From Tepidicaulis marinus (GTDB lineage: Bacteria > Pseudomonadota > Alphaproteobacteria > Parvibaculales > Parvibaculaceae), in NCBI RefSeq assembly GCF_000739695.1, contig NZ_BBIO01000001.1:62001-126000 (forward strand): DNA of 64,000 nucleotides, written 5' to 3'. Each line of letters starts with the position of its first letter. Position 1 is the first letter of the stretch. Made by a program: the position numbers and the translations under genes. This document shows, one piece after another, positions 9,334 to 29,491 of this stretch. Below the pieces are notes generated by a model, which saw only the letters and a list, made by a program, of their open reading frames with translations, was not told where the DNA came from and made no database searches.

Positions 9334-9338
9334 AAGGG
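9334..9338. repeat. Target-site duplication AAGGG, copy at the right (late) phage end
   Basis: AAGGG lies directly outside the terminal TG of the prophage and is repeated directly outside the terminal CA at 45079-45083. Five-base duplications are characteristic of Mu-type transposition. Confidence 0.9.
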
Positions 9339-9346
9339 TGTAGCGC

Positions 9347-9385
9347 GTCATTTGATTTTTCAGTGGTTGCCACTTGGTTTTGCAG
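9347..9385. promoter_or_regulatory. Right-end transposase-binding sites R1 and R2
   Basis: Two related 17-bp sequences lie 22 bp apart start to start: GTCATTTGATTTTTCAG at 9347-9363 and GCCACTTGGTTTTGCAG at 9369-9385. They match the left-end site (GACACTTGTTATTGCAG, reading inward) at 12 and 14 of 17 positions. The first begins exactly 8 bp inside the terminus, as does the left-end site. A 22-bp spacing also matches the length of Mu end-type sites. Confidence 0.8.
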
Positions 9386-9403
9386 CAACCTAGTTTTCCT
9401 CAG

Positions 9404-9445
9404 AACCCGCTGAGAGGCTCTTGAACGGCCTCTTAGCGGGTTTTT
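9404..9445 (+). terminator. Rho-independent terminator at the prophage right end
   Basis: AACCCGCTGAGAGG pairs with CCTCTTAGCGGGTT across an 11-base loop and is followed by TTTTT on the rightward strand. It sits between the phage end and the stop of the Prim-Pol gene. It would stop host transcription leaving tsaD from running antisense into the late genes. Confidence 0.75.
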
Positions 9446-9449
9446 CTCA

Positions 9450-10286
9450 CTATCTCGGCTTCGCCATCCCTGCCCGCAGGCCGCTTGTCACCGTGCCCTC
9501 GATCTCGGCCCGATCTAGGCCGATGGCCAGGGCGGCTTGCGTGAGCCTGGCTCTGGCCTCGGCCTCGCTTATGCGCCCTGCGGCCGTGAACTGGCCAAAG
9601 ACGAAGGCAGCGCGGTTCAGCTGGTCGTTTCGCGTGCCCGGCCGGGCCGCGCGGAGCGCGTCTTCTTCCATCTCCAGGATTTTCAGGCTCGGAGGCCCCT
9701 CAAATCGGCGCTGGCGCTTGCCAGGCTTCGGAAGGGGCTCGGCCCCGGCCGCAAGCCGCAGCCATGCAGGCATGGGCGCAGGGATGACAAGGCCCCCATG
9801 GTTCCAGCGATCGGGCGGCACAAGCCAGCGGTATGGCTTGCCGCAATGATGGATCGAGGGCGGCACGACGATCGAGCCGCCCGCGGAGCGGATATCGAGC
9901 CCTGGTGCAATCTTGCCAGCCCGATTCTTCAGCCGTTCGGGCGGCTGAATGAAATAGTAATGCAGTCCGCCCGAGCCAGACTGCGCCAGCGGCGTCGGCT
10001 GGAAAGGCTCAAGCCCGCTCGCAAAGAGCCGGTTCAGGCTTTCCAGCCCCTCGGGCACATCGACATCGAGGACGCAAATCCCGATCGGCGCACCCGTCGC
10101 CACGCCGATATTGCAGGGGGAGAAGTGCGCAGACCATTCATCGATCAGATCGGGATCGGTCGTGGCTGCATGGCAGCCGCCCTTGACGAGCGGCTTCTTG
10201 CGGGGGCCACGGGAGACCGGGAATACAGGCCAGCCGTAGCCCTGCACATAGGGCTTGGCCATTTCTGCAAAGCTGATCTCCCGCAT
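9450..10286 (-). CDS. Prim-Pol domain primase-polymerase
   Basis: The 278-residue protein shows the bifunctional primase-polymerase N-terminal fold of the archaeo-eukaryotic primase superfamily. The metal-binding DVD sits at 74-76, SGSGGLHYYF with its catalytic histidine at 103-112, and GLDIRSAGGSIVVPPS at about 129-144. The last 80 residues form a small helical domain with repeated short helices. Primases of this type make primers or extend DNA without a separate primase. No helicase domain is attached. It is the last leftward gene before the phage right end, 5 bp after the methylase gene. Mu uses host replication, so its job here is unexplained. Confidence 0.85.
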   Translation of the reverse strand: MREISFAEMAKPYVQGYGWPVFPVSRGPRKKPLVKGGCHAATTDPDLIDEWSAHFSPCNIGVATGAPIGICVLDVDVPEGLESLNRLFASGLEPFQPTPLAQSGSGGLHYYFIQPPERLKNRAGKIAPGLDIRSAGGSIVVPPSIHHCGKPYRWLVPPDRWNHGGLVIPAPMPAWLRLAAGAEPLPKPGKRQRRFEGPPSLKILEMEEDALRAARPGTRNDQLNRAAFVFGQFTAAGRISEAEARARLTQAALAIGLDRAEIEGTVTSGLRAGMAKPR

Positions 10287-10291
10287 CGCCG

Positions 10292-11095
10292 TTACCCCGA
10301 GATAATTACCTCGCCCACGCGGCCGCGTGAGCCAGGCTTTTTGCCGACGGAATAGCTGGTCTCCACGGCCTCGATCTCGAAGTCCTGGAATGTTTCCCGG
10401 ACGCCGGCCGTGTCGTTGAGCGACATGATGAAGCGGCCCTCAAGCCCCTTTAAGAGGTCTCTCAGGCGCTCGAAATCGGCCCGTGAGAAGAGTTCCTTGC
10501 CGTAGTCACTCTCGCTGCCCCAATAGGGTGGATCGAGGTAGAAAAGCGCGCCCGGCCGGTCGTAGCGGGTGATGAACTCGGCATAGGGCAAGCACTCGAT
10601 CGTCACGGCCGAAAGGCGCGTGTGGAGATCCTCCAGCATCGGCCCGAGCTTCGTGATGTCGAAACGGCCCGGCCGGTCCGGCGAGACGCCGAAATTCTGC
10701 CCGCTTGGCTTCCCGCCAAACGCCGTGCGCTGGAGGTAGAGAAAGCGGGCGGCGCGTTCCAGATCCGTCAGCGTGTCCGGATCCGTCTTCGTCAGCCGCT
10801 CGAACTCGGCCCGTGTGGTGAGCTGGAAGCGCATCATCTCCATGAAAGGCACGTAGTGGCGTTGGAGGATGCGGAAGAAGGTCGCCACCTCGCGGTTGAG
10901 GTCGTTGATCACCTCGGCGCGGGGCACCTGTGTGCGGCGCAGGAAAACGCCGCCCATACCGACAAACGGCTCCGCATAGAGCGTATGGGGCACAGCCTCG
11001 ATGCGGGCGATCAGCCGCTTTGCGAGGTTGCGCTTGCCGCCCAGCCAAGGGGCGGCGGGTGAAACGGGTTCTACAGTGTGAATCGACTCCATCAT
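10292..11095 (-). CDS. D12-class DNA adenine methyltransferase (Dam-like)
   Basis: The 267-residue enzyme has the alpha-class N6-adenine methylase order: PWLGGKRNLA near residue 16, the AdoMet loop EPFVGMGGVF (42-51), and the catalytic DPPY at 188-191. A Dam-type helical recognition segment lies between. In a phage such an enzyme usually protects the genome from host restriction or copies a host methylation pattern. It replaces the com/mom modification genes found at this end of Mu. Recognition sequence cannot be read from the protein. Confidence 0.92.
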   Translation of the reverse strand: MMESIHTVEPVSPAAPWLGGKRNLAKRLIARIEAVPHTLYAEPFVGMGGVFLRRTQVPRAEVINDLNREVATFFRILQRHYVPFMEMMRFQLTTRAEFERLTKTDPDTLTDLERAARFLYLQRTAFGGKPSGQNFGVSPDRPGRFDITKLGPMLEDLHTRLSAVTIECLPYAEFITRYDRPGALFYLDPPYWGSESDYGKELFSRADFERLRDLLKGLEGRFIMSLNDTAGVRETFQDFEIEAVETSYSVGKKPGSRGRVGEVIISG

Positions 11096-11238
11096 GTCCA
11101 GTGCTTATAAGGTTCCCGCCGCGTGCGCGGTGGCGGGACGGCCGATTCGCGGCCGGTTTCGGTTGTGGGAGTTGGCGCTCCCGGTTCGGGCTGCGCTAAT
11201 CAGCCCGGCCCCCGCCTATGAAGGGGGAGAAGTATCTA

Positions 11239-11844
11239 ATGACTGAGGAATCAACCACGCCTGCCTTTCTGAAGAGCCCATACCTGATCCAGTACTTCAC
11301 GATCGGAAGTTCAGGGCTTGTCGTGATTTCGTCATCGATATTTGTCGGTCTTCTGGCCAGCGGGGGTCTAAGCCCAAGTGCGGTGAAGATGGCGGAATTC
11401 ACCCTCATCGCCTCAATTCTCAATTTTGCCATGACAGGGTTTGTTATTTCGCTCGTGAATACGCGCGAGCCGAAATTTCTGAAAACTCCTCCGCAACAAC
11501 GTACGCGCCTGATCGGATCCGACAACTTTCTTAAAGCCAGCGATGGAAAGCTGTTTACTGGCACAACCTGCGCTAACTTCCTCACTCTGGTCTTGCTCAT
11601 CATTACGCTTGAAGAGGTCGCAAGTGAGCTGAGCGAAAGAGCCCCGTTCACCCCTTCTGCTCCGCCTCAATCAAGCAGCGATAGCCAGAGCTCTCCCGGT
11701 AAAAATGCGTCACCCGCGTCAGAACCCAGCTCCCATCCGCTTCCGCCCCAAAGCCCTGCACCTGCAGCGGCGCCTCGGCCGCAAACTCCGGCCGCCCCTG
11801 AAACTCCCCTTCAAACACCGCCGTCCCCCGGCTCAGCGCCTTGA
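11239..11844 (+). CDS. Phage cargo gene: membrane protein of unknown function
   Basis: The 201-residue product has hydrophobic segments at about residues 17-42, 56-77 and 110-128. After that comes a Ser/Pro/Ala-rich tail from about residue 133. The tail corresponds to the part read antisense to gene D, with which the gene overlaps by 197 bp. The ATG at 11239 follows GAAGGGGGAGAAG. It runs opposite to the surrounding late genes and its first 400 bp use fewer GC-ending codons, which suggests separately acquired, lysogeny-expressed cargo. No family recognised; superinfection exclusion is one possibility for a small phage membrane protein, but nothing here proves it. Confidence 0.65.
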   Translation: MTEESTTPAFLKSPYLIQYFTIGSSGLVVISSSIFVGLLASGGLSPSAVKMAEFTLIASILNFAMTGFVISLVNTREPKFLKTPPQQRTRLIGSDNFLKASDGKLFTGTTCANFLTLVLLIITLEEVASELSERAPFTPSAPPQSSSDSQSSPGKNASPASEPSSHPLPPQSPAPAAAPRPQTPAAPETPLQTPPSPGSAP

Positions 11845-12622
11845 GTTTTGCCTTGGCGGCCGCCTGCGCCTCGCTCTCGCTTGAATAGGGGTTGCGGAGG
11901 GTGAAGACCGGCGTGCCGGAACCTGCCACGACTTCCTTGCGCGCCGCGCCTTCCACATCGTGCCAATAGGCTTTGACGGCCGTGTACTTGCCCCGGTCGG
12001 CAAAGCGCGCGCGCCAGGTGCCGGCGAGATCCTCCGGCGTCACCGTCACTGCCGTGAGCAGCGCGCCGGAAGCTGCTTTCGTCTCCCCGCGCGGCACGAA
12101 CAGCAGGTGCCGGTTTGCAGGCTTCGCCACCGCATCGAGGTCGCGCGCCAGGCGCGTCAAAAAGTGCAGATCGCTCTCATCCGTCTGATCGAGATGCTCA
12201 TAAGCGGTGGCCGCCAGCGCCTCGGCCGTCTTCGGCGCCAGACCATGCTCGCCGGCAATGGTGGAGACGATGCCGCCCAGCGTCATGGCGTCCCAGCTGC
12301 GGGTTTTGGGGGCTTTCAGGCTCTTGCCCATGTCGGCCGCCTTGCCCTCGATCGTCAGCATGTCGGGCGGGCCGCTCAGCTCGATCTCGTCGCAAGTGAA
12401 GACCCCGAGCCGGGCCATGCCGGTTTCCCGGTATCCGAGCCAGGTCTCCAGCATTGCCCCCGTGAGCGGCACGGCAACCAGCCGCGCCCGGTTGTCGACC
12501 TCGATCACGGCCGTGTCGCTCTTGTCCCCGCGCTCATCCGTTACCTGGAGCGAAACCAGCCGGTCCGCGATCAGCCGGGTAATGTCAGTGCCGTTGGCGA
12601 CAATCTTGAAATCAGGGCGCAT
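11648..12622 (-). CDS. D: Baseplate hub protein, P2 gene D family
   Basis: The 324-residue protein is a P2 gpD/Mu gp44-type tail hub: N-terminal PDFKIVANGTDITRLIADRL, a central ESDLHFLTRLARDL motif, and a C-terminal half that threads through GEFQGRPEFAAE and SWVLTRVTHFYRESSG. It forms the ring that holds the spike protein at the tail end. The start at 12622 has TGGAG 6-10 bp upstream and is better than an ATG 21 bp earlier that lacks any ribosome site. It ends the tail operon after U and X. Confidence 0.9.
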   Translation of the reverse strand: MRPDFKIVANGTDITRLIADRLVSLQVTDERGDKSDTAVIEVDNRARLVAVPLTGAMLETWLGYRETGMARLGVFTCDEIELSGPPDMLTIEGKAADMGKSLKAPKTRSWDAMTLGGIVSTIAGEHGLAPKTAEALAATAYEHLDQTDESDLHFLTRLARDLDAVAKPANRHLLFVPRGETKAASGALLTAVTVTPEDLAGTWRARFADRGKYTAVKAYWHDVEGAARKEVVAGSGTPVFTLRNPYSSESEAQAAAKAKLKALSRGTAVFEGEFQGRPEFAAEAPLQVQGFGAEADGSWVLTRVTHFYRESSGYRCLIEAEQKG

Positions 12623-12666
12623 AGGGTGCTCCAATATCGCCATGTTGTAATTTTTGGGGGAGCGGA

Positions 12667-13095
12667 ATGGAGGACAATACCGAGTATTTCAACCAAGTCG
12701 CCGCAGCGCTTTTTGGGCGGCTGCTCATGGACTTCCCGAAACCGATTGATATCAAGCCAACTGACCTGGTTCCTAAAAAGATCAACGGCCAAAAGGAGCA
12801 CTGGGAAGCTGCCGATTTGGCCGGGCACGCAATTACCTGGCTCAAGAGGTACGGATATATCGACTTCGAAAACTCCTTAGATGACAAGTTCTTCGACGTC
12901 ATTATCTCGGAGAAAGGATTGACGGCATTGAATGCCACTCCATCATCAATTGACGGGAAGAAAAGTGCGGCAGAGCAAATAAAGGAAGCGGCAAAGAAAG
13001 GTGCCCTTGGCGGCGTAGAGAAGCTGGTGCCTGACATTATTAAGCACGGTACATCCTTCGCATTTGCTGCGATCAGAGCGGCAGCTGGTGTCTGA
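12667..13095 (+). CDS. Phage cargo gene: winged-helix-like protein of unknown function
   Basis: The 142-residue product looks like a winged-helix domain (about 8-98; ...AADLAGHAITWLKRYGYIDFENS then a beta hairpin and ISEKGLTALNA). A C-terminal amphipathic/hydrophobic stretch (about 110-142, ending FAFAAIRAAAGV) follows. Base composition is more AT-rich than the flanking tail genes and the strand is opposite. It lies between the starts of D and the end of X with short gaps on both sides, and GGGGGAGCGG precedes the ATG. I do not recognise a named family. The N-terminus could bind DNA or partners and the C-terminus could touch membranes. Confidence 0.7.
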   Translation: MEDNTEYFNQVAAALFGRLLMDFPKPIDIKPTDLVPKKINGQKEHWEAADLAGHAITWLKRYGYIDFENSLDDKFFDVIISEKGLTALNATPSSIDGKKSAAEQIKEAAKKGALGGVEKLVPDIIKHGTSFAFAAIRAAAGV

Positions 13096-13099
13096 CCCC

Positions 13100-13309
13100 T
13101 CAATCCCATAGCCGCACCGTCTTCACTTCCACCTTGGGGCGCAGATCCGGCAGCGTGATCGTCACGCCGGCAGGCAGCCGGGGGCCGAGCGCCGCCAGGC
13201 CTTCATTCGCCTCAAGCACGGCTTCCACCGCGCCAGACTGGACGCCGTAATGCTTCCAGCAGATGAAATCCACCATGTCTCCGTCGCTTGTGCGGTAGAG
13301 CCTGCTCAT
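13100..13309 (-). CDS. X: Tail protein X, LysM-like
   Basis: The 69-residue protein matches P2 gpX: YRTSDGDMVDFICWKHYG, a LysM-like beta-alpha-alpha-beta fold, then LPAGVTITLPDL. Tail protein X is needed for assembly of P2-like tails and probably interacts with the hub or tube end. It overlaps the end of gene U by 4 bp (ATGA), the usual coupling in this operon. Confidence 0.88.
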   Translation of the reverse strand: MSRLYRTSDGDMVDFICWKHYGVQSGAVEAVLEANEGLAALGPRLPAGVTITLPDLRPKVEVKTVRLWD

Positions 13310-13737
13310 CGGCTGCGCGCGCCTCCTGCCGCCTGTGTGCCGTCGCCGGCGTCCTCGCCGTAATGGGAAAGCACGAGCTGAAACTCAATCTTCAGCGGCA
13401 CTCCGTTGCCGTGAAAGCGGGTCTGCGTTTCGGTGATGCGCTCGACCCCGTATTTGCCCCAGACGTTCCCGCGCCCGTCGACAAGAAGCAGCGGCTCGCC
13501 GGCATTCGCCTCCTCGCGCATTGCATCGATCTGGCCGAGCCCGCCCCGGAAGTGCGGGTAGATCGTGCCCTCAAGCTCGATGCGCTCCTCTCCCGCGCCG
13601 ATGAACTGGCGCGCCGGGCGGCGGCCGAGGCGCGGCTGGGACGCCCAGCGGTACTCCTGCTCGCGCATCAGCCGCTGATAGGCGGCCGTGTCGACGGAAA
13701 AGCGGTATTTACCAAGCGCCATCATTGTCCGGCTCAT
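13306..13737 (-). CDS. U: Tail protein U
   Basis: The 143-residue product contains the P2 gpU signature: an N-terminal ALGKYRFSVDTAAYQ, RPARQFIGAGEERIELEGTIYP, and GLGQIDAMREEANAGEPLLLVDGRGNVWGKY. It acts in tail completion or baseplate assembly of contractile phages. It lies between the rightward cargo gene at 13800 and gene X. Confidence 0.9.
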   Translation of the reverse strand: MSRTMMALGKYRFSVDTAAYQRLMREQEYRWASQPRLGRRPARQFIGAGEERIELEGTIYPHFRGGLGQIDAMREEANAGEPLLLVDGRGNVWGKYGVERITETQTRFHGNGVPLKIEFQLVLSHYGEDAGDGTQAAGGARSR

Positions 13738-13799
13738 TGCTTGCCTCCCGGACTCTGCTTGTGCTCAACTGCGCCGTTCATGATGGAAAGGGCATCGCC

Positions 13800-14192
13800 A
13801 TGAAAGCCATTTGGGGTATCGCGCTGGTCATATGTGTCGGCCTTGTCGGGATCGGCATTCTCAATATGACAGGACAAACCGGCTGGTATGGCGGGCGGGT
13901 TCCCCTGAACGATGCAACAATTTCTGATTGGCATCGCGCGACGGAACGAGACCGCGTCGACACATCCAAGGTCTGGATTGCGGTTTGGATGGGGCGCGAA
14001 AACTATGAGCAGCTTGGGCCAGAAGCAGAAGTCATGATCGCACTCAATGCGAAACACCTTGCAGAATGTGTCACGAACACGTCGAAGCCGTGGGCACAGC
14101 AGCCTGATGGTGAGAACACTCAAGCCGCTGACCTTGCCAGCACCTGTCTGAACATGGCGGACGACATTCCCCGCGCCGATAAATTCAAGTAG
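13800..14192 (+). CDS. Phage cargo gene: exported or membrane-anchored protein of unknown function
   Basis: The 130-residue product starts MKAIWGIALVICVGLVGIGI, a signal-anchor or uncleaved signal sequence, followed by a soluble periplasm-type domain (about 30-130). Two cysteines near residues 90 and 115 could form a disulfide. The ATG follows GGAAAGGG at a suitable distance. It sits on the opposite strand between the tape-measure stop (4 bp away) and gene U, with AT-richer codons. I recognise no family. An envelope role in the lysogen, such as blocking phage entry, is inference from position only. Confidence 0.65.
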   Translation: MKAIWGIALVICVGLVGIGILNMTGQTGWYGGRVPLNDATISDWHRATERDRVDTSKVWIAVWMGRENYEQLGPEAEVMIALNAKHLAECVTNTSKPWAQQPDGENTQAADLASTCLNMADDIPRADKFK

Positions 14193-14196
14193 CGCC

Positions 14197-16302
14197 TCAA
14201 TCATGCAACGCCCTCCGGGTGCCCGCTTCCATGCGTTGCATCACCTTGCGGACGAGCTCCTCCATATCCATCCCCGGCGCCGCATGAACCGTAATCTGGT
14301 TCGTGACCTGAATAGGCCGCAGCGCAGCCGGAAATGCAGCCGTGGATGAGGGCACCGCGCCGGCCGCAATAGAGGTAGCCCCGGCGGCATCCGCCGCCGG
14401 CATGCCCCCCACTGCCTGACCGATCTTTCCGCCAAGAAATTCCCCGCCCAGTCCGCCGATCACGCCGCCCAGGATGCCCCCGATCGTCGTGCCGATAATG
14501 GGGACGATTGAGCCCAGAGCGGCACCGGCTGCCGCCCCGCCCAATGCGCCGGCAAGACCGCCGCCCGACCGGCCGACCGCCTCTGCATTGCCGCTGCGCG
14601 CCGCACCGATGAGGTCGACCGCGCCCAGGCCGACCGCCAGAGGTAAAGCTGCCCGGCCAAGCAGCTTCCCGCCGCCACGCAGTGCCCGGCCGAGCCGTCC
14701 GGCCCGCGCAGCGCCCCGGCCTGCGCGGCCTTTCCCGCCAGCGCCAAGGCCACCGAACCCGCCTGGCGGCATATTCGTCACATGCACAGGCGTAACGCCG
14801 CCAAAGCCGCCAAGACCGGCACCCACCGTGCTTGTCGCGCGCGCAGCAGCACCTTTGCGCCCGCGCGAAAAGAGTTTTCCGATGCCGAGCTTGCGCGCGG
14901 CGATGGCCGAGCCCACCAAGCCCGCTCCGATTGTGCCGATCGTGAAGGCCGTATTCGCCCCTTCCGCCCCAAGATTGTTGATAGCGGAGGCAAGCAAATC
15001 CACCGGCTTGCTTAACTTGCTGTCTGCGAAACGCTCCCATGCCGTCGAGAGCGCGCCGAGCGACTGGTTGAACGTCCGGCTTGCGCGCGCGGCATCCTTA
15101 GCAAGCGCATCACCTGTGCCGCCCGTTTGAAGAAGATCGTCCAGCTGTTTGAATTCGCCGGTGCGGTTAAATTCAGACGCGAGGACGTTGATGCCGCGAA
15201 TGGACTCATCCCCGAATATCTCGCCGAGCTTTTTCACATCGCCTTCGGTGGCGGTGATCAAGTCCTTCAGCACATCCGTGACGGCGCGCATTTCCCTGCG
15301 GCCTTCGGCAAGGGCTTCCGGATCCCAGACATCGACACCGATATCCTCGACATCCTCCGATTTGGAGCGCAGTTCCGCCAGGGTGCGCTCAAAGGCCGTG
15401 ACTGCCTGCTCGGCCGAGCCAGTGCCTTTGCGGAACATCTGAATAAGCGCGCCTTGCTCCGATGCGGCAGCCGCACCGCTGCGGCCGACGCCGGCATAGG
15501 CAGCCATTAACCGCTCGCTCTGTGTTGCCTGATCCTTCAGAGCGAAAGAGGCAAACTTGCCTTGCTCGACAAAGCGGTCGAGCTGACGAAGCACCTCTTC
15601 GGCGTCCCGGATACTGTACTTGTCCCACATATTGGCGACCATCGCGCCAATGTCCTGGCCGGCTGCGCCTGATGCCTGAACGGCCAGCGCAATGTTGAGG
15701 AGGTTTTCACGGGCGAGATCGAGATCACCGGTCTTTTCGACAATCGTTTCGACGGCGGCGGTGATTTCGCCGGCATCGACGCGTACATCATCAGCAAGCG
15801 CAATGTCGAAAATATCTTTCTTCAGCGCATTGATTTCAGCCTGGCTCTTGTTGGCTTGAATGCCGAGGCGGACAAATCGTTCTTCCAGGTTGCCGACTTG
15901 CCGGATCGTGGCACCAAGGCCCACGGCACCCACCAAGGCGGTGTATTTATTCGCGGCGAAGTCGAGCCCTTTCCCGGCCAATGCTCCCATTTTGCCCAGC
16001 TTCCGGGACTGAGCGGCCGCCCGGCCGAGCGTGCGGCCGTAATTCGCGGCGCCGCGCGCGGCACGGGCGATTTCTTCCTTCGTGCGGCGCATGGACTGGC
16101 CGAGGCGGGAAGACGAGCGATCTAGACGGTCCGTCTCACGCGCGGTATTGCGGGCAGAACGGGCATGGGACTTGAGGTCCCGCTCCTGAGCCTTGACCGA
16201 TTTGCCGACACCGCCGATCGTTTGGCGCGCTTGCCCCATCGTGGAGCGGAAGCTGCCGCCAAGCGTTGCGCCGACCTCGATGCCGTAACCGAGCTTCTTC
16301 AT
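14197..16302 (-). CDS. T: Tail tape measure protein
   Basis: The 701-residue protein has an alpha-helical N-terminal half with coiled-coil character (about 20-120), a TP901-type tape-measure core (LEERFVRLGIQANKSQAEINALKK to about residue 440), and a long glycine/alanine-rich hydrophobic region (about 440-640) that would insert into the host membrane during DNA delivery. It sets tail length. The ATG at 16302 overlaps the stop of the E' frame (ATGA) and is preferred to an upstream ATG inside E'. It is followed by a cargo gene rather than directly by U. Confidence 0.9.
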   Translation of the reverse strand: MKKLGYGIEVGATLGGSFRSTMGQARQTIGGVGKSVKAQERDLKSHARSARNTARETDRLDRSSSRLGQSMRRTKEEIARAARGAANYGRTLGRAAAQSRKLGKMGALAGKGLDFAANKYTALVGAVGLGATIRQVGNLEERFVRLGIQANKSQAEINALKKDIFDIALADDVRVDAGEITAAVETIVEKTGDLDLARENLLNIALAVQASGAAGQDIGAMVANMWDKYSIRDAEEVLRQLDRFVEQGKFASFALKDQATQSERLMAAYAGVGRSGAAAASEQGALIQMFRKGTGSAEQAVTAFERTLAELRSKSEDVEDIGVDVWDPEALAEGRREMRAVTDVLKDLITATEGDVKKLGEIFGDESIRGINVLASEFNRTGEFKQLDDLLQTGGTGDALAKDAARASRTFNQSLGALSTAWERFADSKLSKPVDLLASAINNLGAEGANTAFTIGTIGAGLVGSAIAARKLGIGKLFSRGRKGAAARATSTVGAGLGGFGGVTPVHVTNMPPGGFGGLGAGGKGRAGRGAARAGRLGRALRGGGKLLGRAALPLAVGLGAVDLIGAARSGNAEAVGRSGGGLAGALGGAAAGAALGSIVPIIGTTIGGILGGVIGGLGGEFLGGKIGQAVGGMPAADAAGATSIAAGAVPSSTAAFPAALRPIQVTNQITVHAAPGMDMEELVRKVMQRMEAGTRRALHD

Positions 16303-16696
16303 TTCTCTGCCTGTTTCAGTTGCGCGGCCGCTTCGCGCCACTGGTCAAACTCATCGAGCGGCATGTCGAGCCATTCGGCAAGATTGCCGCCCGACACGCT
16401 GCAAAGCTGGAGGACGGAAAGCCTCAACGATCCGGCAGAGGAGGCTCCCCCGGCTTTCCCGGCTGCAGCATCTCCTCGAAAGCCTTCTGCAGCTTGCCCC
16501 AGTCAGCCAAGTCAAGCTCTTCCAGTTCTTCGCGGGTTAGCTCCGTGAGCGAGCAGAAATACATCAGCTCGCGCTCCGCCTCTTCCTTGTAAGTCTGGGC
16601 GGCCAGTTCATCGCGCACCTTCGGCCGGCGCATCTTGATGTCGCGGATAGTCGTGCCGTTCACGGTAACGGGGTGATCGAGTTTGATATGCTTCAT
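16299..16696 (-). CDS. E: Tail assembly chaperone E/E' made by a -1 ribosomal frameshift
   Basis: Without a shift, E is 90 residues and stops at 16424; it reads MKHIKLDHPVTVNG..., typical of the P2 gpE/Mu gp41 tail chaperones. At 16460-16454 the leftward strand has GGGAAAG in the phase G GGA AAG. That is the classic slippery heptamer, identical to the one in the lambda G-T chaperone gene. A -1 slip there adds 51 residues ending AEWLDMPLDEFDQWREAAA, matching the E' extension type, and stops at 16299 overlapping the tape-measure start. The fusion would be 132 residues. Both products normally bind the tape measure during tail assembly. Confidence 0.85.
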
Positions 16697-16719
16697 CTCT
16701 TTTCCTCACGTCCTGCCGC

Positions 16720-17217
16720 TTAGAGACCCAGCGCGCGACGTTGATCGGCCATCTGGTCGACGCCTGCGATGCGGCGGATCATGTTCTCCGCATCGATCTC
16801 CACCACCGGCTGATCGGCGACGGAGATTTTCAGGTAATGCGGCGTGAACATGAGCTTCTTGTCGGGCATCGAGCCGCGCTGCCAGGTACCGGGCTCGACT
16901 TCCCGCAGGAGACCGCGCATCTGATAGATCACGCTTTCGGTTTCCCCGTTCGGGCCCACTTGCGCGCCGCGCAAGGTGAGCGGCGTGTCGGTCTTGCCGA
17001 TATGGGCATAGAGTGCGTTGGAGAACTCTGAGAAGGTCATGGAACATTCCATCTTCTCCACCGCACCCATGTCGATATCGATCGGCGCGGCCATACCGCC
17101 GGCCAGATACTCTTCCACTTGCAGCGAGACGGTCGGCGGCACGCCTTCCTTGATCTTACCGGCATAGCCGAAACCGTCGATGAAGCCGGTGAAGTTCCGG
17201 AGTGTCTTGGGCAACAT
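16720..17217 (-). CDS. FII: Major tail tube protein, P2 FII family
   Basis: The 165-residue protein begins MLPKTLRNFTGFIDGFGYAGKI and contains IDIDMGAVEKMECSMTFSEF, the pattern of P2 gpFII. It forms the inner tube inside the contractile sheath. It lies 80 bp downstream of the sheath gene; that gap holds a hairpin (CTCAGGGG paired with CCCCTGTGAG near 17254-17283) that may tune the ratio of tube to sheath. Confidence 0.92.
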   Translation of the reverse strand: MLPKTLRNFTGFIDGFGYAGKIKEGVPPTVSLQVEEYLAGGMAAPIDIDMGAVEKMECSMTFSEFSNALYAHIGKTDTPLTLRGAQVGPNGETESVIYQMRGLLREVEPGTWQRGSMPDKKLMFTPHYLKISVADQPVVEIDAENMIRRIAGVDQMADQRRALGL

Positions 17218-17297
17218 GTCTGAAATCCTTTTCAGTGCCTGATTAAATGGCTCTCAGGGGCAGTTCGGCCGCCCCTGTGAGGGCTCGATGCGCGCCT

Positions 17298-18488
17298 TTA
17301 GGCGGCTTCGAGAACCTGGTTGACCAGCTCTTCGTAGTAGCCGGCGTTGCGGTGCGCCCGGAACGTGAGGCGCTCAAGCGGCGCGGGCGGCTCGATGTCG
17401 AAATCGAGATAGAGCTTGCCCGCCATGAGCTGATCCGGCGTGTTGAGCTCGGGGTCGAGCCAGACGGTGCCGCCCAAGATCGCGCCCCGTGCCTGGAGCG
17501 AGCCAAGATAGGCTTGCACGCTGTCCTGGATATCGAGCACGAGCTGAGCGGAAAGCGGGCGGTCCATGGCCCAGAGGAAGGCGCGCTCGACGCTCTCATA
17601 GACCATGTCGGCCGTGCGCCGCACGGAGAGGAACGCCCAAAGCGGATCGTCCGAACAGGTCCGGTTGCCCCAGAGCCGGTAGCCGTCTTTCAAAACGACG
17701 GTCGCCACCTCGTTTTCGTTAAGCAGGTTCGCCTCCGAATTCGGATCGGACATGTTGAAGCCGATCGGCCGGGCCGTACCGACAATGCCGTTCAGCACCT
17801 GATTGGAAGGCGACCACCAGAAACCGCGCTCATTATCCCGCTTGGCAATGGCGCCAGCCACACGGGCAGAGACGGGCTGCACGACGGCCTGCGAAAGAGC
17901 CGTGTCCCAAACCTTGACGGCCGGGTCGGTCACATAAACGCGCGCCGAGCCCCAGTCTTCCCGCCAGGTAATCGCTTCGGTAGTCGTCGTGTTCGGGCCA
18001 TCGGCGACAATGACAGCCCGCAGCTTCTCGGCAATCCCGACAAGCTCCGCCACGACCGGATTGGCGGCAGCTGCAGGCCGGTCACCCGTAAAGCCGGGCG
18101 CGCAGAGAATGCGCGGGAGCACTTTGACCTCGTTCTCGGCCGAGAGGAAAGCATGGACACCGGTGCCGAGCGCGCTGTCCCCCACGATGTTCGACATGGT
18201 TGCCGTGGTGTCGACACCTTCTTCGACGCGGATGATAACGATCGTTGCACCCGTCTGATCGTAGATTGCATCCACCGCATCTTTCAGCGTGCCGGCATCG
18301 CCAAGATCGGCAGCCTTGCGCGGCTGATTGGCAAGTAGTACCGGCGTGTTGAGCGGGAACGTTGCCCCAACCGCGTCGGGCGCCGTGCCGATAAGGCCGA
18401 TGACCGAGGATTTCACCGTCTGGATGGGACGGATGCCCTCGTCGATTTCGATTACTTCTACACCGTGCAAAAACTGTTCAGGCATCAA
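17298..18488 (-). CDS. FI: Tail sheath protein, P2 FI family
   Basis: The 396-residue protein has the sheath pattern: N-terminal HGVEVIEIDEGIRPIQTVKSSVIGLIGTAPDA, a variable middle, and a C-terminal half with VKVWDTALSQAVVQPVSARVAGAIAKRDNERGFWWSPSNQ and GNRTCSDDPLWAFLSVRRTADM. It forms the contractile outer sheath. A second ATG one codon later (18485) is equally possible. P2 order (sheath, tube, E, tape measure) is kept. Confidence 0.95.
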   Translation of the reverse strand: MMPEQFLHGVEVIEIDEGIRPIQTVKSSVIGLIGTAPDAVGATFPLNTPVLLANQPRKAADLGDAGTLKDAVDAIYDQTGATIVIIRVEEGVDTTATMSNIVGDSALGTGVHAFLSAENEVKVLPRILCAPGFTGDRPAAAANPVVAELVGIAEKLRAVIVADGPNTTTTEAITWREDWGSARVYVTDPAVKVWDTALSQAVVQPVSARVAGAIAKRDNERGFWWSPSNQVLNGIVGTARPIGFNMSDPNSEANLLNENEVATVVLKDGYRLWGNRTCSDDPLWAFLSVRRTADMVYESVERAFLWAMDRPLSAQLVLDIQDSVQAYLGSLQARGAILGGTVWLDPELNTPDQLMAGKLYLDFDIEPPAPLERLTFRAHRNAGYYEELVNQVLEAA

Positions 18489-18500
18489 GCCCTCCTTCGG

Positions 18501-19169
18501 TTAAGGCTGCGGCCAAGAAAGGCCGTCGAGAATGGTTTGAATAGCGGGCACATCACCGGCCGCTTCCACTTGCGTTTTGGCGGCGCGCCGGATGCCTTCG
18601 ATAGCCGCGCCGACCTGCAGCCAGGCATCACGGGCTGCAAGCACGGTCTGGGCAACGGCCGCAAGGTCAGCCCCGTCACCGGGAATGCAGGCGCTCAAGA
18701 CCGGATAGTCGGCAGGGTCGGGACTTGCATCCGCCATAAAGGCTTCCGCTTCACGCTCCTTGCGCTGATAGGTCCAGGCTTGTCCCTCTCCAGGTGTGAT
18801 GAACAGCATCCGGGCCGCTTCAGCATCGGTGTCGATTTTCTGAAGCGCTGCCGCTTTCACTTCTGCAAACGGAGGAGCTGGCATCTCGGACAACGCCTCG
18901 GCGGGCGGCTCGATACCAAGCTCGGTGATTTTGTGTTTGCTGCGATCGGCAAGCCAGTAGGTATGCCCGCGCCAATCGGGAACAATTGTCCACGCTCCCT
19001 CGGCATAGACAGCCGCCTCATGTTCTGCCACTTCCGGCGGTGCCGTGAAGGTGGCAAAAGCGGGGAGCAGCCAAGCGCCCTCCTGCTTTGGATTTGCCCG
19101 CGCGGGCGTCGTGCCGCTCAGCTCGCCGGTCAGTGCATCGAAATGATAAAGGGTAGGTGCCATCGTCAC
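18501..19169 (-). CDS. Tail fibre assembly-like protein
   Basis: The 222-residue protein follows the fibre gene with a 4-bp overlap, the usual position of fibre chaperones. Its N-terminal part (YHFDALTGELSG and a proline-rich stretch, then DWRGHTYWLADRSKHKITELG) resembles the variable DUF4376/fibre-assembly proteins. The remainder is helical. It probably helps fold or trimerise the adhesion fibre. The match is by position and weak sequence pattern, so the family assignment is moderate. Confidence 0.65.
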   Translation of the reverse strand: MTMAPTLYHFDALTGELSGTTPARANPKQEGAWLLPAFATFTAPPEVAEHEAAVYAEGAWTIVPDWRGHTYWLADRSKHKITELGIEPPAEALSEMPAPPFAEVKAAALQKIDTDAEAARMLFITPGEGQAWTYQRKEREAEAFMADASPDPADYPVLSACIPGDGADLAAVAQTVLAARDAWLQVGAAIEGIRRAAKTQVEAAGDVPAIQTILDGLSWPQP

Positions 19170-20173
19170 TGGTTCCCTGCATAGATAATCCGCATCCGGG
19201 CGATGTTTTTGGGCCGGGTCTCTGCCGCAATGCGCGGAATGCCGTTCGTGCCGTCGCTGATCGGCTGGCCCGTTTCATCGGCGGTTCCTTCGCTATCTTC
19301 AAAGGATGGATAGTTGGTCGTACCGGCCGGACCGGCGCGAAGAATTCGCTCCATGTAATGGGTGTGCCCCTGAAACGCGTCTTCCTGCGCATTGCCCTGG
19401 CCGCGTCCGCTGTCAATTCCGCGTCCATGGTCCCAGGCACGCGAAAAATAACCGCGAAAATCCGGCAACCGGAAAGTGGTGCTGCCATCACCGACCGAGT
19501 AATAGCCGGTCTGACCGCTGAGCCAGAAAGCTTCGGATACAATAAGGTTCGATTGCGACGCCCTCTGCCACAACGCAGCAGCATCCACTCGTGAAATCAA
19601 GGCGCCGTCCGCCTCGTACCACCCGGCTGGCGGCGTCTCAAACGGCCAATCCATTTCCGCGCCCACGGGAACGGTTTGAAATCCTGCCACGGCCTGTTGC
19701 ACAAATTCGGTGGTCGAGAGGGCAAGCGAGCTGTCACCAGGGGCCTGCGTCGGGGCTGTCGGTGTGCCGGTAAGGGCAGGAGAATTAAGCGGCGCTTTCA
19801 GGGCAAGCGCGTTCATCACGGTTGTGGCAAAGTTCGGATCATCGCCCAGCGCTGCCGCTAGCTCGTTCAATGTGTCGAGCGCTGCGGGAGAGCTGGCCAC
19901 GAGCGCGGCAATGGCTGCCTGCACAAAGGCGGTATTTGCCGCGCTCAGCGAATTGTTTCCGGGCGGCTGCGTCGGCACTGTGGGGTTACCAGTGAAGACA
20001 GGCGAGGCAATCGGCGCGCGCAGCTCGACTTCCTGCTTTAGGTAAGCCGTGCGATTCGCAAGCTGCTTTGCCTGATTGTTGGAAATACCGTCCGGGCCGC
20101 CTTGAACGGGATCCGTGAGCTCAAGCTGATAAATACCACCTTCCCATGTGGCGGCTTCAGGCAGATTGGCCAT
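19166..20173 (-). CDS. H: Tail fibre / phage tail-collar protein
   Basis: The 335-residue protein starts MANLPEAATWEGGIYQLE, followed by two imperfect repeats of about 60 residues (FTGNPTVPTQPPGNNSLSAANTAFVQ and LTGTPTAPTQAPGDSSLALSTTEFVQ). A collar-like C-terminal part carries GWYEADGALISR, TFRLPDFRGYFSRAWDHG and GHTHYMERI. It is probably the host-recognition fibre. The start at 20173 lies inside the end of gene I. The short length compared with Mu or P2 fibres suggests a compact adhesin. Confidence 0.85.
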   Translation of the reverse strand: MANLPEAATWEGGIYQLELTDPVQGGPDGISNNQAKQLANRTAYLKQEVELRAPIASPVFTGNPTVPTQPPGNNSLSAANTAFVQAAIAALVASSPAALDTLNELAAALGDDPNFATTVMNALALKAPLNSPALTGTPTAPTQAPGDSSLALSTTEFVQQAVAGFQTVPVGAEMDWPFETPPAGWYEADGALISRVDAAALWQRASQSNLIVSEAFWLSGQTGYYSVGDGSTTFRLPDFRGYFSRAWDHGRGIDSGRGQGNAQEDAFQGHTHYMERILRAGPAGTTNYPSFEDSEGTADETGQPISDGTNGIPRIAAETRPKNIARMRIIYAGNQ

Positions 20174-20732
20174 CGACAACTCCGTGTGTATATGCGCCGT
20201 CATAGGTGATGGCGGCGTTATAGAGGTTCAGCGCCTGGTCGTAGCGCAGTTCATGTAGCTTGCAGCGCTCAGGTTGAGCGCGGTCGAGGATCTCTCGGAC
20301 CTGCGCGGCCTGGGCGATGGAAACGGGTTTCTGCAGCACGATCGAGTACCAGGCCCAGTGTTCGCTCTCGCTGTAAAAATGGACCCCGTCGTAACTGGCG
20401 CGTCCGTCATACCGGCGCGCATCGAGCCGCTCGATAAATTCCACCTCGCCGTAACCGGCCGCGCGCAGCGCATCGCGCATCGCGCCTGGAGAGCCTTTTC
20501 GTTTATGAAATGCGAGGCTCGCAGCGGTTGTGTTCCGCCGCGCCTCAACCGACCAGTTCTCATCCCAGAGATCCACCGACCAGGCCCAGGCAAGCCAAGG
20601 CAGAATGTCGAGCGGGCAAGTGTGCGGATCCCAGACATCGGCAATGCGGACCGGGATAGCGAGCGCATGCTCGATGCTTGCATCGAGGTCGCGCTCAAGC
20701 TGGCTGGCATTGGGCGGCAGAAGTTCAGTCAC
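20157..20732 (-). CDS. I: Baseplate/tail protein I
   Basis: The 191-residue product matches P2 gpI: LLPPNASQLERDLDASIEHALAIPVRIADVWDPHTCPLDILPWLAWAWSVDLW then a helical region and the conserved RKGSPGAMRDALRAAGYG. It forms part of the baseplate wedge that joins fibres to the baseplate. It overlaps J by 8 bp and the fibre by 17 bp. Confidence 0.92.
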   Translation of the reverse strand: MTELLPPNASQLERDLDASIEHALAIPVRIADVWDPHTCPLDILPWLAWAWSVDLWDENWSVEARRNTTAASLAFHKRKGSPGAMRDALRAAGYGEVEFIERLDARRYDGRASYDGVHFYSESEHWAWYSIVLQKPVSIAQAAQVREILDRAQPERCKLHELRYDQALNLYNAAITYDGAYTHGVVDGQSA

Positions 20733-21708
20733 CGGCCACCTCCGTGGTCAAGGTGATGCCCGTGCAATATGCCGCCTGGTAACGTGTGGGTTCGACATCG
20801 ACCGCCGGAGCGTTAAGGCGCACCTTTTCGACGCCGGCAACCGTAAGCGCCGCTTTGAGACCGCTTTCTGTTACACGCCGGCCGATCTTGTGCTGGCCAG
20901 TAATGTATTTCTCGACGGCCGCATTGGCCGAAGCAAGAATGAGCGGCGCCTCCGGTCCATCGGTGATTTCGAGCACCGCATCGACCGTGTAGGTGACGAT
21001 CTCAACGGGAAGAACGAATACCGTGTCGCAGAGCGGCCGGACATATTCATCCGTCAGATGTGCCTCGACGGCATCGAGAGTTGCCTGATCCGGGACGCCG
21101 TCGCCCTCATGCGCCATCACGATGACGGTTACATCGCCGGGCGCGGAACGGAAAGCATCCGCGTCCTTCACGTTTGCGGCGATGCCCCCTTCGGCAAACT
21201 CGTAGGTGATGGTCACAATGCCGGGAACGCCCGTTTCCACCTGGATATCGGTGGGAATTTCCCCGGCCGAAAGCGCATTGAAGATATAGCTGCCGCGCGG
21301 CCCGGCAACGGATAGGGCTTCCGGTGCGAGTTGAACACGGCGGCGCAGTGACGCATCGTCTTCATAAACCGGCTCGATCGGAGGTAAGGCTTCCGGATCG
21401 CCGGGAGAGAGCAGCCGGCGCTCGACGCTGTAATTTGCCGCAATGTGATCGAGGTTGTTGCCTGCCGCGAAGGCCAGCATGATCGAGCGGGCTTTGTCGT
21501 TCTCGCGCTGGCGGATCAACAATTCGCGGTGTGCCGCCGTCTCCAGCAGCTTCATAGCCGGATCGCTTTCAAGGAAGGCGGCATCATAGTCTTCGTTGCG
21601 TTCCAGAAAATCGGCTTTCAGCGCCGCAAGAATCGCCTCATAGGAAAGCTCCTCGATAACCTGCGGCTTTTGAAGCGAAGAAAGATCAATGACATCGAAG
21701 CGGCTCAT
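20725..21708 (-). CDS. J: Baseplate assembly protein J
   Basis: The 327-residue protein has the gpJ/Mu gp47 pattern: FLERNEDYDAAFLESDPAMKLLETAAHRELLIRQRENDKARSIMLAFAAGNNLDHIAANY at the N-terminus, RRVQLAPEALSVAGPRGSYIFNAL, and a C-terminal repeat of ferredoxin-like strands. It builds the wedge of the contractile baseplate. It overlaps W by 4 bp. Confidence 0.93.
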   Translation of the reverse strand: MSRFDVIDLSSLQKPQVIEELSYEAILAALKADFLERNEDYDAAFLESDPAMKLLETAAHRELLIRQRENDKARSIMLAFAAGNNLDHIAANYSVERRLLSPGDPEALPPIEPVYEDDASLRRRVQLAPEALSVAGPRGSYIFNALSAGEIPTDIQVETGVPGIVTITYEFAEGGIAANVKDADAFRSAPGDVTVIVMAHEGDGVPDQATLDAVEAHLTDEYVRPLCDTVFVLPVEIVTYTVDAVLEITDGPEAPLILASANAAVEKYITGQHKIGRRVTESGLKAALTVAGVEKVRLNAPAVDVEPTRYQAAYCTGITLTTEVAGD

Positions 21709-22043
21709 AGGGTGATGCCCTCCAGCGTCAGAGTTTCACCCGTGCGCAGCCAGCGGCCTTTGAGATCGAGCGTGAACCGGCCGGCCTCCGCTGCCGCCAC
21801 CCGTACATGCTTCAGCTCGAAACGCGGCTCCCAGCGATCGAGCGCCTCGGCCACGTCGGCATAAATGTCCACCAGGAGCTCCGGCGTCATTGGCCGGTCG
21901 ATCTTCTCGAACAGGGCCGAACCATATTCACGGCGCATGACGCGCGTGCCGATCGGCGTCGACAGAATGTCGCCGATCGACTGGATCAGGTGATCCTGAC
22001 CCGACAGGGCTTTGCCTGTATGCGCGCTCATGCCCGTGGTCAT
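21705..22043 (-). CDS. W: Baseplate wedge protein W (gp25-like)
   Basis: The 112-residue protein carries the gp25/GPW signature: HLIQSIGDILSTPIGTRVMRREYGSALFEKIDRPM, then VDIYADVAEALDRWEPRFEL. Proteins of this family form the core bundle of the baseplate wedge where sheath assembly begins. The start overlaps the end of the small gene upstream by 1 bp. Confidence 0.92.
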   Translation of the reverse strand: MTTGMSAHTGKALSGQDHLIQSIGDILSTPIGTRVMRREYGSALFEKIDRPMTPELLVDIYADVAEALDRWEPRFELKHVRVAAAEAGRFTLDLKGRWLRTGETLTLEGITL

Positions 22044-22240
22044 CAGTCTTTAATCTCCGTTTCTACCGGCGTTTTCTTTGTCTTCGTCTTGGGCGCGTCC
22101 GGCGCAGCAAGGTGGCCGGAAAGCAGGAGATACTTGGCGGCGCGCGCAGCAAGCTGGATGCGCTCACCCGGCTGCCAGGGCTCGCCGTTCTCCTTGCGGA
22201 GCGGGAGCTGCTTCAGAACTTCATAGGTTTCCGTTTTCAT
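22043..22240 (-). CDS. Small phage tail-module protein of unknown function
   Basis: The 65-residue protein reads MKTETYEVLKQLPLRKENGEPW, then ERIQLAARAAKYLLLSGHLA and a lysine/threonine-rich tail. A TGAGGC ribosome site supports the start at 22240; the longer reading would begin inside gene V. Short proteins of this kind occur between V and W genes of Mu-like phages, but no function is established. Probably co-translated with W. Confidence 0.7.
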   Translation of the reverse strand: MKTETYEVLKQLPLRKENGEPWQPGERIQLAARAAKYLLLSGHLAAPDAPKTKTKKTPVETEIKD

Positions 22241-22247
22241 GGCTGCC

Positions 22248-22895
22248 TCAATGGTCATGGTGGTTGGAGTTCGCGCCGCCGGCGAGAATGTCACCGGTCG
22301 CATTGATGTTGCCGGTCACGTCGAGATTGCCCTCAAGCGAAAAGTTACCTTTGAGAGAGGCTTGAGCCGCACCACCTTCGGTCGATTGAATGCTGACAAA
22401 GGGCGCGGTGATGGAGACGTTGGCCGACGCTTCCACTGCGATGGACGCGGCAGAGGTCACAGTGACATCGCCTCCTGCATCGACAGTCACGGTGCCCTCC
22501 GCCACGACCTCGACATCACCCTTCACATTGGCAAAAAGACGTCCTTCGCCACGGCTATATTCGATCACCGTGCCATCGGCGAACTCGATCCTGGCTACAT
22601 CCGCCGAGGCACCTGGTGCCGGCGCGGCCTGGCTGTAAATTGCCGGCATGACGATGCCCTGCGCCGGGTTGCCGGAAGGTGAGATCACGAGCACCTGCTC
22701 GCCAATCTCAGGCGCCCACCAAGTCCGGTCTCCGCCGGCGCGGGCTGTTACCCAGGGAAGCCAGCCGCTCTGCCGCTCTCCAATATTCACGCGCACCCGC
22801 GCCTTGCCGTAATCGGCGGCAGAGATGGTGCCGAGCTGCGCGATATTGGCCAAGCGCCGTTCGAGTTCAGCAATGCGGTATTCAAGATCAAGCAT
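22248..22895 (-). CDS. V: Baseplate spike protein V
   Basis: The 215-residue protein has an N-terminal OB-fold part (GTISAADYGKARVRVNIGERQSGWLPWV) and GEQVLVISPSGNPAQGIVMPAIY, followed by a repetitive beta-helix (VTVDAGGDVTVTSAASIAVEASANVSITA) and a C-terminal HHDH. In P2 and related spikes a terminal HxH binds iron at the membrane-piercing tip; the end here could do so. The start at 22895 is preferred because GGGGAC lies just upstream. Confidence 0.92.
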   Translation of the reverse strand: MLDLEYRIAELERRLANIAQLGTISAADYGKARVRVNIGERQSGWLPWVTARAGGDRTWWAPEIGEQVLVISPSGNPAQGIVMPAIYSQAAPAPGASADVARIEFADGTVIEYSRGEGRLFANVKGDVEVVAEGTVTVDAGGDVTVTSAASIAVEASANVSITAPFVSIQSTEGGAAQASLKGNFSLEGNLDVTGNINATGDILAGGANSNHHDH

Positions 22896-23433
22896 CGCCG
22901 TCCCCACTCGACGCGATCAGATCGCCGTTCAAATAAAGCTCGCGCAGATATTCCGGCGCTTCGTCATCCGGGCCTTCAAGCGTGATTGTCGTCAGTTCCA
23001 GCTCAGCCCCATGACAGAGAACACCGGCGAACATGACCGGCGCGCTCTCGTTGAGCTGAAGGCCCGCCGCCTGCGGTGTGGTGCAGGTGATGACCGTACC
23101 GCCCAACGTGTCGTCCGCCCGGAAGGCTTCCACAATGCTCTCGATCAGGCGGTCGAACTCGATCTCGCTGGCGCTCTCGTCATTGAAGGAACGAAAGCCC
23201 CGGATCACCCACGAATGCTGGACCTCATTAACCGCATAGGTCAGCACACGGGCGCGGCGGCGGATACGGCGCACGAACCAGCCCTTGATCTTGCCATCCT
23301 GCTCGTAGCGGGCACGGAATTTGTCCTGGCGCTGTGCCCAGCGCTCATGGCGCTGCACGATGCCGGCATCCGCCACACCCTCGATCTTGGCGGCAATCGC
23401 CTCGCGGATGAGCTCCATGTCCTGTTGCATCAC
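22888..23433 (-). CDS. Tail terminator-like / tail completion protein
   Basis: The 181-residue protein lies between the HK97 gp10-like gene and V, where Mu-like and P2-like phages carry a tail-terminator or connector protein. It is alpha/beta, with ARVLTYAVNEVQHSWVIRGFRSFNDESASEIEFDRLIESIVEAFR in the middle, similar to the Mu gp37 type. The N-terminus has several possible ATGs close together. Function is assigned mainly by position. Confidence 0.6.
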   Translation of the reverse strand: MMQQDMELIREAIAAKIEGVADAGIVQRHERWAQRQDKFRARYEQDGKIKGWFVRRIRRRARVLTYAVNEVQHSWVIRGFRSFNDESASEIEFDRLIESIVEAFRADDTLGGTVITCTTPQAAGLQLNESAPVMFAGVLCHGAELELTTITLEGPDDEAPEYLRELYLNGDLIASSGDGDA

Positions 23434-23948
23434 CGCGCCTCCGCCATGCGGGCAGCGATGCGCTCCAGCGCCTGACCGAAAATCGCCTGCACCTGATCTT
23501 CACCTTCCTCGAAGGTCTCGGTGAACATGAAAGCGCCTTCCGTGCCTTCACGCGCGATCTTGCGGGCGATGGCAAAGGCCACGCCTTTGGCTTCCTGCGG
23601 GGCGAGCCCGAGCTTGATCCGCGCCCAATCCTCTATCGGCTTTACAGGCGGCATATGCGGCTTCGTGCCGAGCTCGACGGGAGCTGCATGGGCGAGTGAC
23701 GTCGCAACAGCGCCGATTACGCCGTCTGCAATGCGGCCAGGTTCACGCGCCGAGATCGAACCCTTGAGCCCGCCGCCACCGCCCACACCGACCGGCGTGC
23801 GTTCCTGTACTTCACGCTGCAGGAAAAGCGAAGCCTCCCAGGTTGCCCCGTAAAGCTCCTCTTCGACGATCTCGGGCGCTTCTTCAAAGGCTGCGATCAG
23901 CGCCTCTGCCGAGTGAAGATCGATACGGATATCAAGCCCGTTACTCAT
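23430..23948 (-). CDS. HK97 gp10-like tail completion protein
   Basis: The 172-residue product starts DIRIDLHSAEALIAAFEEAPEIVEEELYGATWEASLFLQREVQERTPVGVGGG, the usual gp10/Mu gpG-like pattern. A central AHAAPVELGTKPHMPPVKPIEDWARIKLGL matches the conserved ExGTxPHxPP block. It joins head and tail. It overlaps its neighbours by 1 and 4 bp. Confidence 0.85.
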   Translation of the reverse strand: MSNGLDIRIDLHSAEALIAAFEEAPEIVEEELYGATWEASLFLQREVQERTPVGVGGGGGLKGSISAREPGRIADGVIGAVATSLAHAAPVELGTKPHMPPVKPIEDWARIKLGLAPQEAKGVAFAIARKIAREGTEGAFMFTETFEEGEDQVQAIFGQALERIAARMAEAR

Positions 23949-24604: not shown

Positions 24605-24630
24605 CTGCGGACCTGTTTCTGAAATTCATG

Positions 24631-24666: not shown

Positions 24667-24677
24667 ACTTCTTTCTA

Positions 24678-29489: not shown

Positions 29490-29491
29490 GC

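Follow-up and report, generated by a model that had tools for sequence, protein, structure and literature searches.

A primase-polymerase without a helicase beside an adenine methylase at the right end of a Mu-like prophage of Tepidicaulis marinus

The prophage and its right-end genes

We analysed a 64,000-nucleotide stretch of the Tepidicaulis marinus genome (contig NZ_BBIO01000001.1, positions 62,001 to 126,000; hereafter the window), in which a Mu-like prophage ends on its right side with two adjacent genes, encoding a D12-class adenine methyltransferase (the methylase) and a primase-polymerase (Prim-Pol) of the archaeo-eukaryotic primase (AEP) type. The bounds of the prophage were established by comparison with an empty site in the genome of a sister species (G039), in which tsaD joins window position 45079 directly; the element is delimited by TG..CA ends and by a 5 bp target duplication, AAGGG (Table 1). 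The methylase gene lies upstream of the Prim-Pol gene, on the same strand and 5 bp from it, and the Prim-Pol stop codon is 111 bp inside the right end of the prophage. Because this end lies beyond the Prim-Pol gene, and because the empty site lacks the gene, Prim-Pol is ruled out as a host gene. An earlier, sequence-only reading had placed a Prim-Pol next to a Dam methylase at a Mu right end, and the arrangement was borne out by matches to PF09250 and PF02086 and by a right end that is exact at 9339.

With MuA- and MuB-type proteins, TG..CA ends and a 5 bp duplication, the element has the features by which a Mu-like transposable phage is recognized, and profile matches to sheath and to baseplate proteins J and V reveal a contractile-tail set. 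By its gene content and ends the prophage is a Mu-like transposable phage, and replicative transposition on induction is predicted. The early region also encodes a small protein with a DnaA DNA-binding domain (37877-38419, minus strand; PF08299, E 1.9e-14) and, directly after Gam, a DUF6378 protein (37071-37457, minus strand; PF19905, E 5.4e-21).

Table 1. Features of the prophage, in window coordinates.
Feature	Position	Strand	Evidence and remarks
Mu-like prophage	9339..45078	(-), phage genes mostly minus strand	35,740 bp; empty-site junction
Target-site duplication AAGGG, right copy	9334..9338		Empty-site comparison
Prophage right terminus TGTAGCGCGTCATTTG	9339..9354	(+)	Junction versus empty site
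Prim-Pol (AEP-type primase-polymerase), 278 residues	9450..10286	(-)	PF09250, E 7.2e-38
D12-class N6-adenine DNA methyltransferase (Dam-like), 267 residues	10292..11095	(-)	PF02086, E 7.3e-25
Mor-type activator	35345..35749	(-)	PF08765, E 2e-06
GemA	35984..36688	(-)	PF06252, E 1.7e-38
Mu Gam-like end-protection protein	37348..38103	(-)	phrog_491, E 2.1e-14
MuB-type transposition ATPase	38939..39907	(-)	phrog_296, E 5.2e-79
MuA-type transposase	39992..41944	(-)	phrog_310, E 2.7e-163
Target-site duplication AAGGG, left copy	45079..45083		Empty-site comparison

In Mu, mom ends at position 36602 of 36717, 115 bp from the terminus, and the proposal that the two genes occupy the com/mom place of Mu is therefore upheld by the spacing. 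Like the com/mom module, the right end of the window phage holds a DNA-modifying gene; unlike it, the phage has a methylase instead of Mom and, in addition, Prim-Pol. None of the four right-end proteins that were scanned matched Mom or Com, com itself not having been searched for. Two alphaproteobacterial transposable phages, StopSmel and POA1180, have the order ParB, MuA, MuB in common with the window phage, and in both, likewise, a methylase gene follows the tail genes at the right end. In place of Prim-Pol, StopSmel (a Sinorhizobium phage; L285, OR786374.1) has an ATP-dependent DNA ligase (36445-37386; PF01068, PF04679) directly after the methylase, whereas neither Prim-Pol nor a ligase is annotated after the methylase of POA1180. 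We considered whether repair enzymes are regularly stored at the right end and rejected the idea, as a ligase occurred in none of the 49 other MuA-bearing records surveyed.

The methylase scored 88.6 bits against PF02086 (cut-off 22), and its alignment contains EPFVGMGG and DPPY, which we take to be the D12 methyltransferase motifs. A search of the host's own genome for D12 enzymes found it at this one place only. The earlier name 'Dam methylase' stands as to the D12 adenine class, though not as to Dam itself, because the NCBIfam 'dam' model gives the protein 94.9 bits, short of its threshold of 114.85 bits; 'D12 adenine methyltransferase', which does not imply a target site, is thus safer. 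Restriction-site avoidance was dropped as a clue to specificity: the phage shows no avoidance of GATC (observed/expected 1.05), and a depletion of GANTC is common to the prophage and the host flank. That depletion is strong (0.22 of expected in the prophage, 0.28 in the flank), and CcrM is presumably a candidate for its cause. In PADLOC the methylase matched type II and orphan methyltransferase models and PD-Lambda-5_B. A DNA-level search of plasmids gave matches in 15 records, and among the ten matches listed it was the methylase half of the query sequence that matched.

Adjoining the methylase, and antisense to the end of the tail-hub gene, is an open reading frame (ORF) of 208 residues (11218-11844, plus strand) with a lower GC content (0.553), hydrophobic stretches and a proline-rich tail. 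It had no matches in Pfam, PHROG or PADLOC and is possibly a moron.

A Prim-Pol separated from its helicase

Prim-Pol scored 131 bits against PF09250 (curated cut-off 22.8). A single-sequence phmmer search of the PDB returned a chance match only (E 0.37), and an alignment-profile search found pRN1 ORF904 at E 7e-9. The AlphaFold2 model, built from a 23-row Prim-Pol alignment (mean pLDDT 94.1, pTM 0.69), has a catalytic domain at about residues 1-181, a loose linker at 183-200 and a four-helix bundle at 202-274. In VIA-align comparisons of this predicted structure, the catalytic domain was placed on pRN1 ORF904 (1rni) with Z 12.7 over 172 residues at 4.0 Å (query 3-186), and the whole chain on the N300 fragment of the NrS-1 enzyme (6a9w) with Z 8.5 over 216 residues; the 9.8 Å deviation of the latter indicates that the domains are set differently in the model and in 6a9w. 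The bundle matched PriX at Z 5.2, while unrelated helical chains reached Z 7.6, and structural identification of the bundle alone was dropped because such chains score equally high; a Pfam scan of Prim-Pol found no PriCT match.

All 23 aligned Prim-Pols share the residues D74, D76 and D131, and H109 is conserved throughout the clade of about 60% identity (the close clade below), but only in part of the 23-row set. We take these to be the active-site motifs (DxD, then D, and the histidine), and the claim that the catalytic motifs are intact is confirmed to this extent. With no stops and the active-site residues retained, a degraded gene copy is ruled out.

The pRN1 ORF904 protein is a replication protein joined to a helicase part. 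So is the NrS-1 enzyme, whereas the window gene naturally ends after the bundle. Identity of Prim-Pol to these proteins (NrS-1 N300, 6a9w and 7rr3; ORF904, 1rni and 3m1m) is about 11-16%. NrS-1 N300, which has an equal layout, is reported to have primase and polymerase activity similar to that of the full-length enzyme, with its helix bundle required for priming (PMC8718748). A parallel in a conventional phage is provided by the p101-type primase-helicases of Rhizobium phage 16-3, whose N-terminal 280 or so residues are 31% identical to the query in an alignment that spans 97% of it; p101 has 722 residues and an AAA_25 ATPase, which the window Prim-Pol lacks. No helicase domain was found in Prim-Pol, a 278-residue protein with the methylase on one side and the prophage terminus on the other, and it does not have the fused or adjoining helicase-type ATPase that marks a phage replicative primase-helicase. 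As modelled, it has the build of a complete priming unit that lacks a helicase, and we infer primer synthesis and extension as its activity.

Freedom from the helicase is unusual among the relatives of this protein. In IMG/VR we found 80 loci that encode related Prim-Pols, and took protein sizes from stop-to-stop reading frames: 59 proteins had at least 600 residues, 15 had fewer than 500, and six were cut by contig ends. All 59 long proteins match Prim-Pol, and among them there are matches, in overlapping sets, to AAA_25 (25), DUF5906 (17), D5_N (13), VapE (9), DUF3987 (5) and DnaB_C (2). Ten of the 15 short loci lie outside the close clade, and at eight of these a helicase- or ATPase-type protein recognized by Pfam overlaps Prim-Pol or follows directly; at the other two (L255, L223) the neighbour tested had no Pfam match. 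The remaining five (L016, L017, L206, L207, L208) belong to the close clade and represent four distinct proteins, namely the window's own, that of the G003 type (L016), that of the L017/L208 phage and that of L207. L016 was not counted apart from the G003 prophage, as it gave the same match with an identical score, and L017 and L018/L208 were counted as one phage because of an identical flank. With the G022 prophage the close clade has five members, the others being 60.3% (G003), 57.9% (G022), 58.2% (L017) and 60.1% (L207) identical to the window Prim-Pol. No helicase-sized frame adjoins Prim-Pol in G003 or G022, and in L207 the gene that follows encodes 119 residues without a Pfam match. Decoupling from the helicase is thus, on the evidence of these gene neighbourhoods, a mark of the close clade and not general among Prim-Pols.

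Distribution among transposable phages

The pair of genes recurs. A prophage in a Hyphomicrobiales metagenome-assembled genome (G022; 142-37036 of its contig, 36,895 bp, duplication CACGT) has the methylase and Prim-Pol at its right end, and a phage known as fragments (L017/L018) has them in the same order. The latter we consider Mu-like on three grounds: it shares the right-end 16-mer, it is syntenic with G022, and its sample also yielded a MuA fragment (L163) resembling that of G022. The 16-mer of the window right end, with up to two mismatches, was found beyond the window once each in L011 (at 142), L017, L018 and L067 (at 178; downstream of the MuA of G089) in 798,105 bases scanned. Prim-Pol stops 855 bp from the right end in G022 and 901 bp in L017/L018, and the last gene before the end in both (L011 275-718, minus strand; L017 about 5016-5384) is a conserved ORF of about 147 residues, 62% identical between L011 and L017, with a signal-like start in L011 and no Pfam matches. 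The pair thus occurs in two further phage lineages with its residues kept, contrary to the case, allowed for beforehand, of a pair confined to this phage and degraded in its catalytic residues; it is probably useful.

A third transposable prophage, in 'Alpha proteobacterium Mf 1.05b.01' (G003), has a different transposase, with Mu-transpos_C and no tblastn match to the window MuA. Its Prim-Pol lies among the early genes, between GemA and the Mor-type gene, where the window prophage, unlike the G003 phage, has none; no methylase relative was found within 59 kb. Since this phage has Prim-Pol without the methylase and many relatives have the methylase alone, the two genes are separable, and the pair as an obligate unit is rejected.

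Divergence between the window and G022 is similar for the three genes compared, the non-synonymous distance (dN) being 0.39 for Prim-Pol, 0.33 for the methylase and 0.42 for MuA, and G022 and L017 are 73.1% identical in Prim-Pol and 74.8% in the methylase. The three finite Prim-Pol pairs that include the window protein gave dN of 0.391-0.412 and synonymous distances (dS) of 1.40-2.0; three of ten Prim-Pol pairs were saturated at synonymous sites. The MuA of L163 was left out, its frame being broken into two overlapping segments, 73% and 81% identical to the G022 MuA. Judged by these substitution patterns, Prim-Pol, methylase and MuA are phage genes long co-resident under purifying selection.

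A class-wide search of 385 genomes found MuA relatives (E ≤ 1e-40) in nine, at ten places besides the window's own, three of these regions ending at contig ends. Methylase relatives were present in four of the ten: in G212, in G066 (in pieces) and in two regions of G415. The two Mu-like prophages of G415 (L080-L085) closely resemble each other, and each lacks Prim-Pol and has its methylase a long way downstream of MuA; in G066 (L075, 8614-10070) the methylase relative occupies two reading frames and is apparently broken. The relative in G212 (L072, 8314-9105; 64% identical) lies between portal and head-morphogenesis genes, away from the right end, which indicates that the methylase gene moves within phage genomes. 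A family search of 40 genomes gave strong Prim-Pol matches only in G000, G003 and G022.

The MuA search of IMG/VR gave 80 loci, of which the 49 longest records were surveyed, together with L018, added for its Prim-Pol. Among these 50, Prim-Pol was above the cut-off only in the window's own record and L018; a weak match in G429 (15.9 bits, below the cut-off, with one stop) was not counted. A D12 methylase was found in 16 of the 50, or in 15 of the 33 records with a length of 30 kb or more; in 12 of these 15 it lay at most 2 kb from the record end away from MuA. Conversely, a Mu-type transposase was matched in one of 50 Prim-Pol-bearing records (of the 80 Prim-Pol loci), the window's own. Among MuA-bearing phages the right-end methylase is common and Prim-Pol rare.

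Possible roles of Prim-Pol

Mu-type phages are the textbook case of leaving DNA synthesis to the host replisome, and a phage that copies itself by transposition should need no DNA-starting enzyme of its own. We tentatively propose that Prim-Pol primes DNA synthesis or fills gaps and in this way helps to complete phage DNA during replicative transposition, a reading which we regard as a serious possibility short of an even chance. An active primase-polymerase, made up of the catalytic domain and the priming bundle and cut loose from the helicase of its relatives, would make DNA primers or fill gaps on single strands left by replicative transposition. Its candidate substrates would be strand-transfer joints, the lagging strand and stalled forks, where it would assist or replace the host restart machinery, and phage copies would be complete before packaging. 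The activity, substrate, timing and benefit of the enzyme are alike what we infer.

Replicative transposition of Mu and repair of its infecting insertions need the PriA primosome at strand-transfer joints, and the 5 bp gaps are handled by restart (PMC3325207). By analogy, Prim-Pol could assist this PriA-dependent step, and the earlier idea of gap repair is plausible. CAPP, a homologous Prim-Pol that works with the Cas1–Cas2 integrase in CRISPR adaptation, and for which gap filling and strand displacement are proposed (PMC8211822), is a precedent for a Prim-Pol beside an integrase and not evidence. The position of the G003 Prim-Pol among early genes fits a priming or gap-filling role; that of the window Prim-Pol, late and downstream of the tail genes, suggests either a finishing task close to packaging or action at another time.

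Several observations weigh against this role. Prim-Pol was found in none of the ten other MuA regions of the genomes and in none of the 48 other MuA-bearing IMG/VR records (viral records are often fragments, and absences among them are soft), so it is not needed for transposition. In the survey of Mu-like right ends that had been called for, the pair recurs in G022 and L017/L018 and Prim-Pol is missing from those 48 records. Neither a helicase nor a single-strand-binding protein that could act as its partner turned up in the prophage proteins scanned. The late (mom) end position, with no sigma-70-like promoter in 9200-12700 (none found, 0.7 expected, an uninformative count), fits late action better than early replication, and the early position in G003 and the late one in the window contradict each other on timing.

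Prim-Pol may instead be accessory cargo, taken from the replication module of a conventional phage, captured in a variable right-end slot and of minor or host-side benefit, such as repriming or damage tolerance in the lysogen; we think this unlikely, but deserving of weight. A stand-alone Prim-Pol about 60% identical (L207) occurs in a 24.9 kb viral record with VRR-NUC, GcrA, DnaA-C (adjoining) and HNH genes and no Mu transposase match, and other extra genes do occur at right ends, namely the StopSmel ligase and the ORF of about 147 residues in G022 and L017. Cargo would sit less easily with purifying selection and co-divergence with the methylase and MuA over about 58-75% identity, or with the fact that Prim-Pol accompanies two lineages of transposase and occupies two different places in phage genomes.

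Joint action with the methylase as a counter-defence or modification unit, in which Prim-Pol might for instance resynthesize or repair methylase-marked DNA, as mom shields Mu from restriction, seems improbable to us. The 5 bp spacing in the com/mom slot and the divergence in step of the two genes between G022 and L017 would suit it, yet each is found without the other in related phages, so joint action is unnecessary to explain the data. The functional partnership suggested by the sequence-only reading is thus not supported, the methylase standing alone in most relatives and Prim-Pol alone in G003; nor is a part for Prim-Pol in defence, as it matched no PADLOC defence model or family. Very improbable, in our view, is interference between phages, in which a helicase-less Prim-Pol would compete with the primase-helicases of superinfecting phages: corresponding to the N-terminal part of such enzymes, it could occupy their templates, but a decoy would not need the catalytic residues that are kept.

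Extending the proposed completion role to a group of alphaproteobacterial transposable phages, with a dedicated helicase-free Prim-Pol completing Mu-type transposition and a right-end slot that collects finishing enzymes (Prim-Pol, the StopSmel ligase), is a step that we regard as doubtful. The Prim-Pols that mobile elements carry are well described, as are their fusions to helicases and their PriCT domains (PMC5862659). The part available of a review of 103 alphaproteobacterial phages places Prim-Pols in clusters B and C and states none for a separate Mu-like supercluster (PMC10783043), and a literature search, which covered few subscription journals, yielded no description of a transposable phage with a Prim-Pol. 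The parts are known; their combination and the place of Prim-Pol look new.

The right-end genes, formerly lumped together, can now be told apart as a modification gene that is common and a synthesis gene that is rare. An apparently intact and conserved phage-coded primase-polymerase suggests that some Mu-type phages had reason to add a synthesis enzyme of their own; if the proposed role is true, a dedicated Prim-Pol takes a DNA-synthesis step that Mu leaves to the host, and the phages that carry it would offer a small system for learning how transposition gaps and forks are finished outside E. coli.
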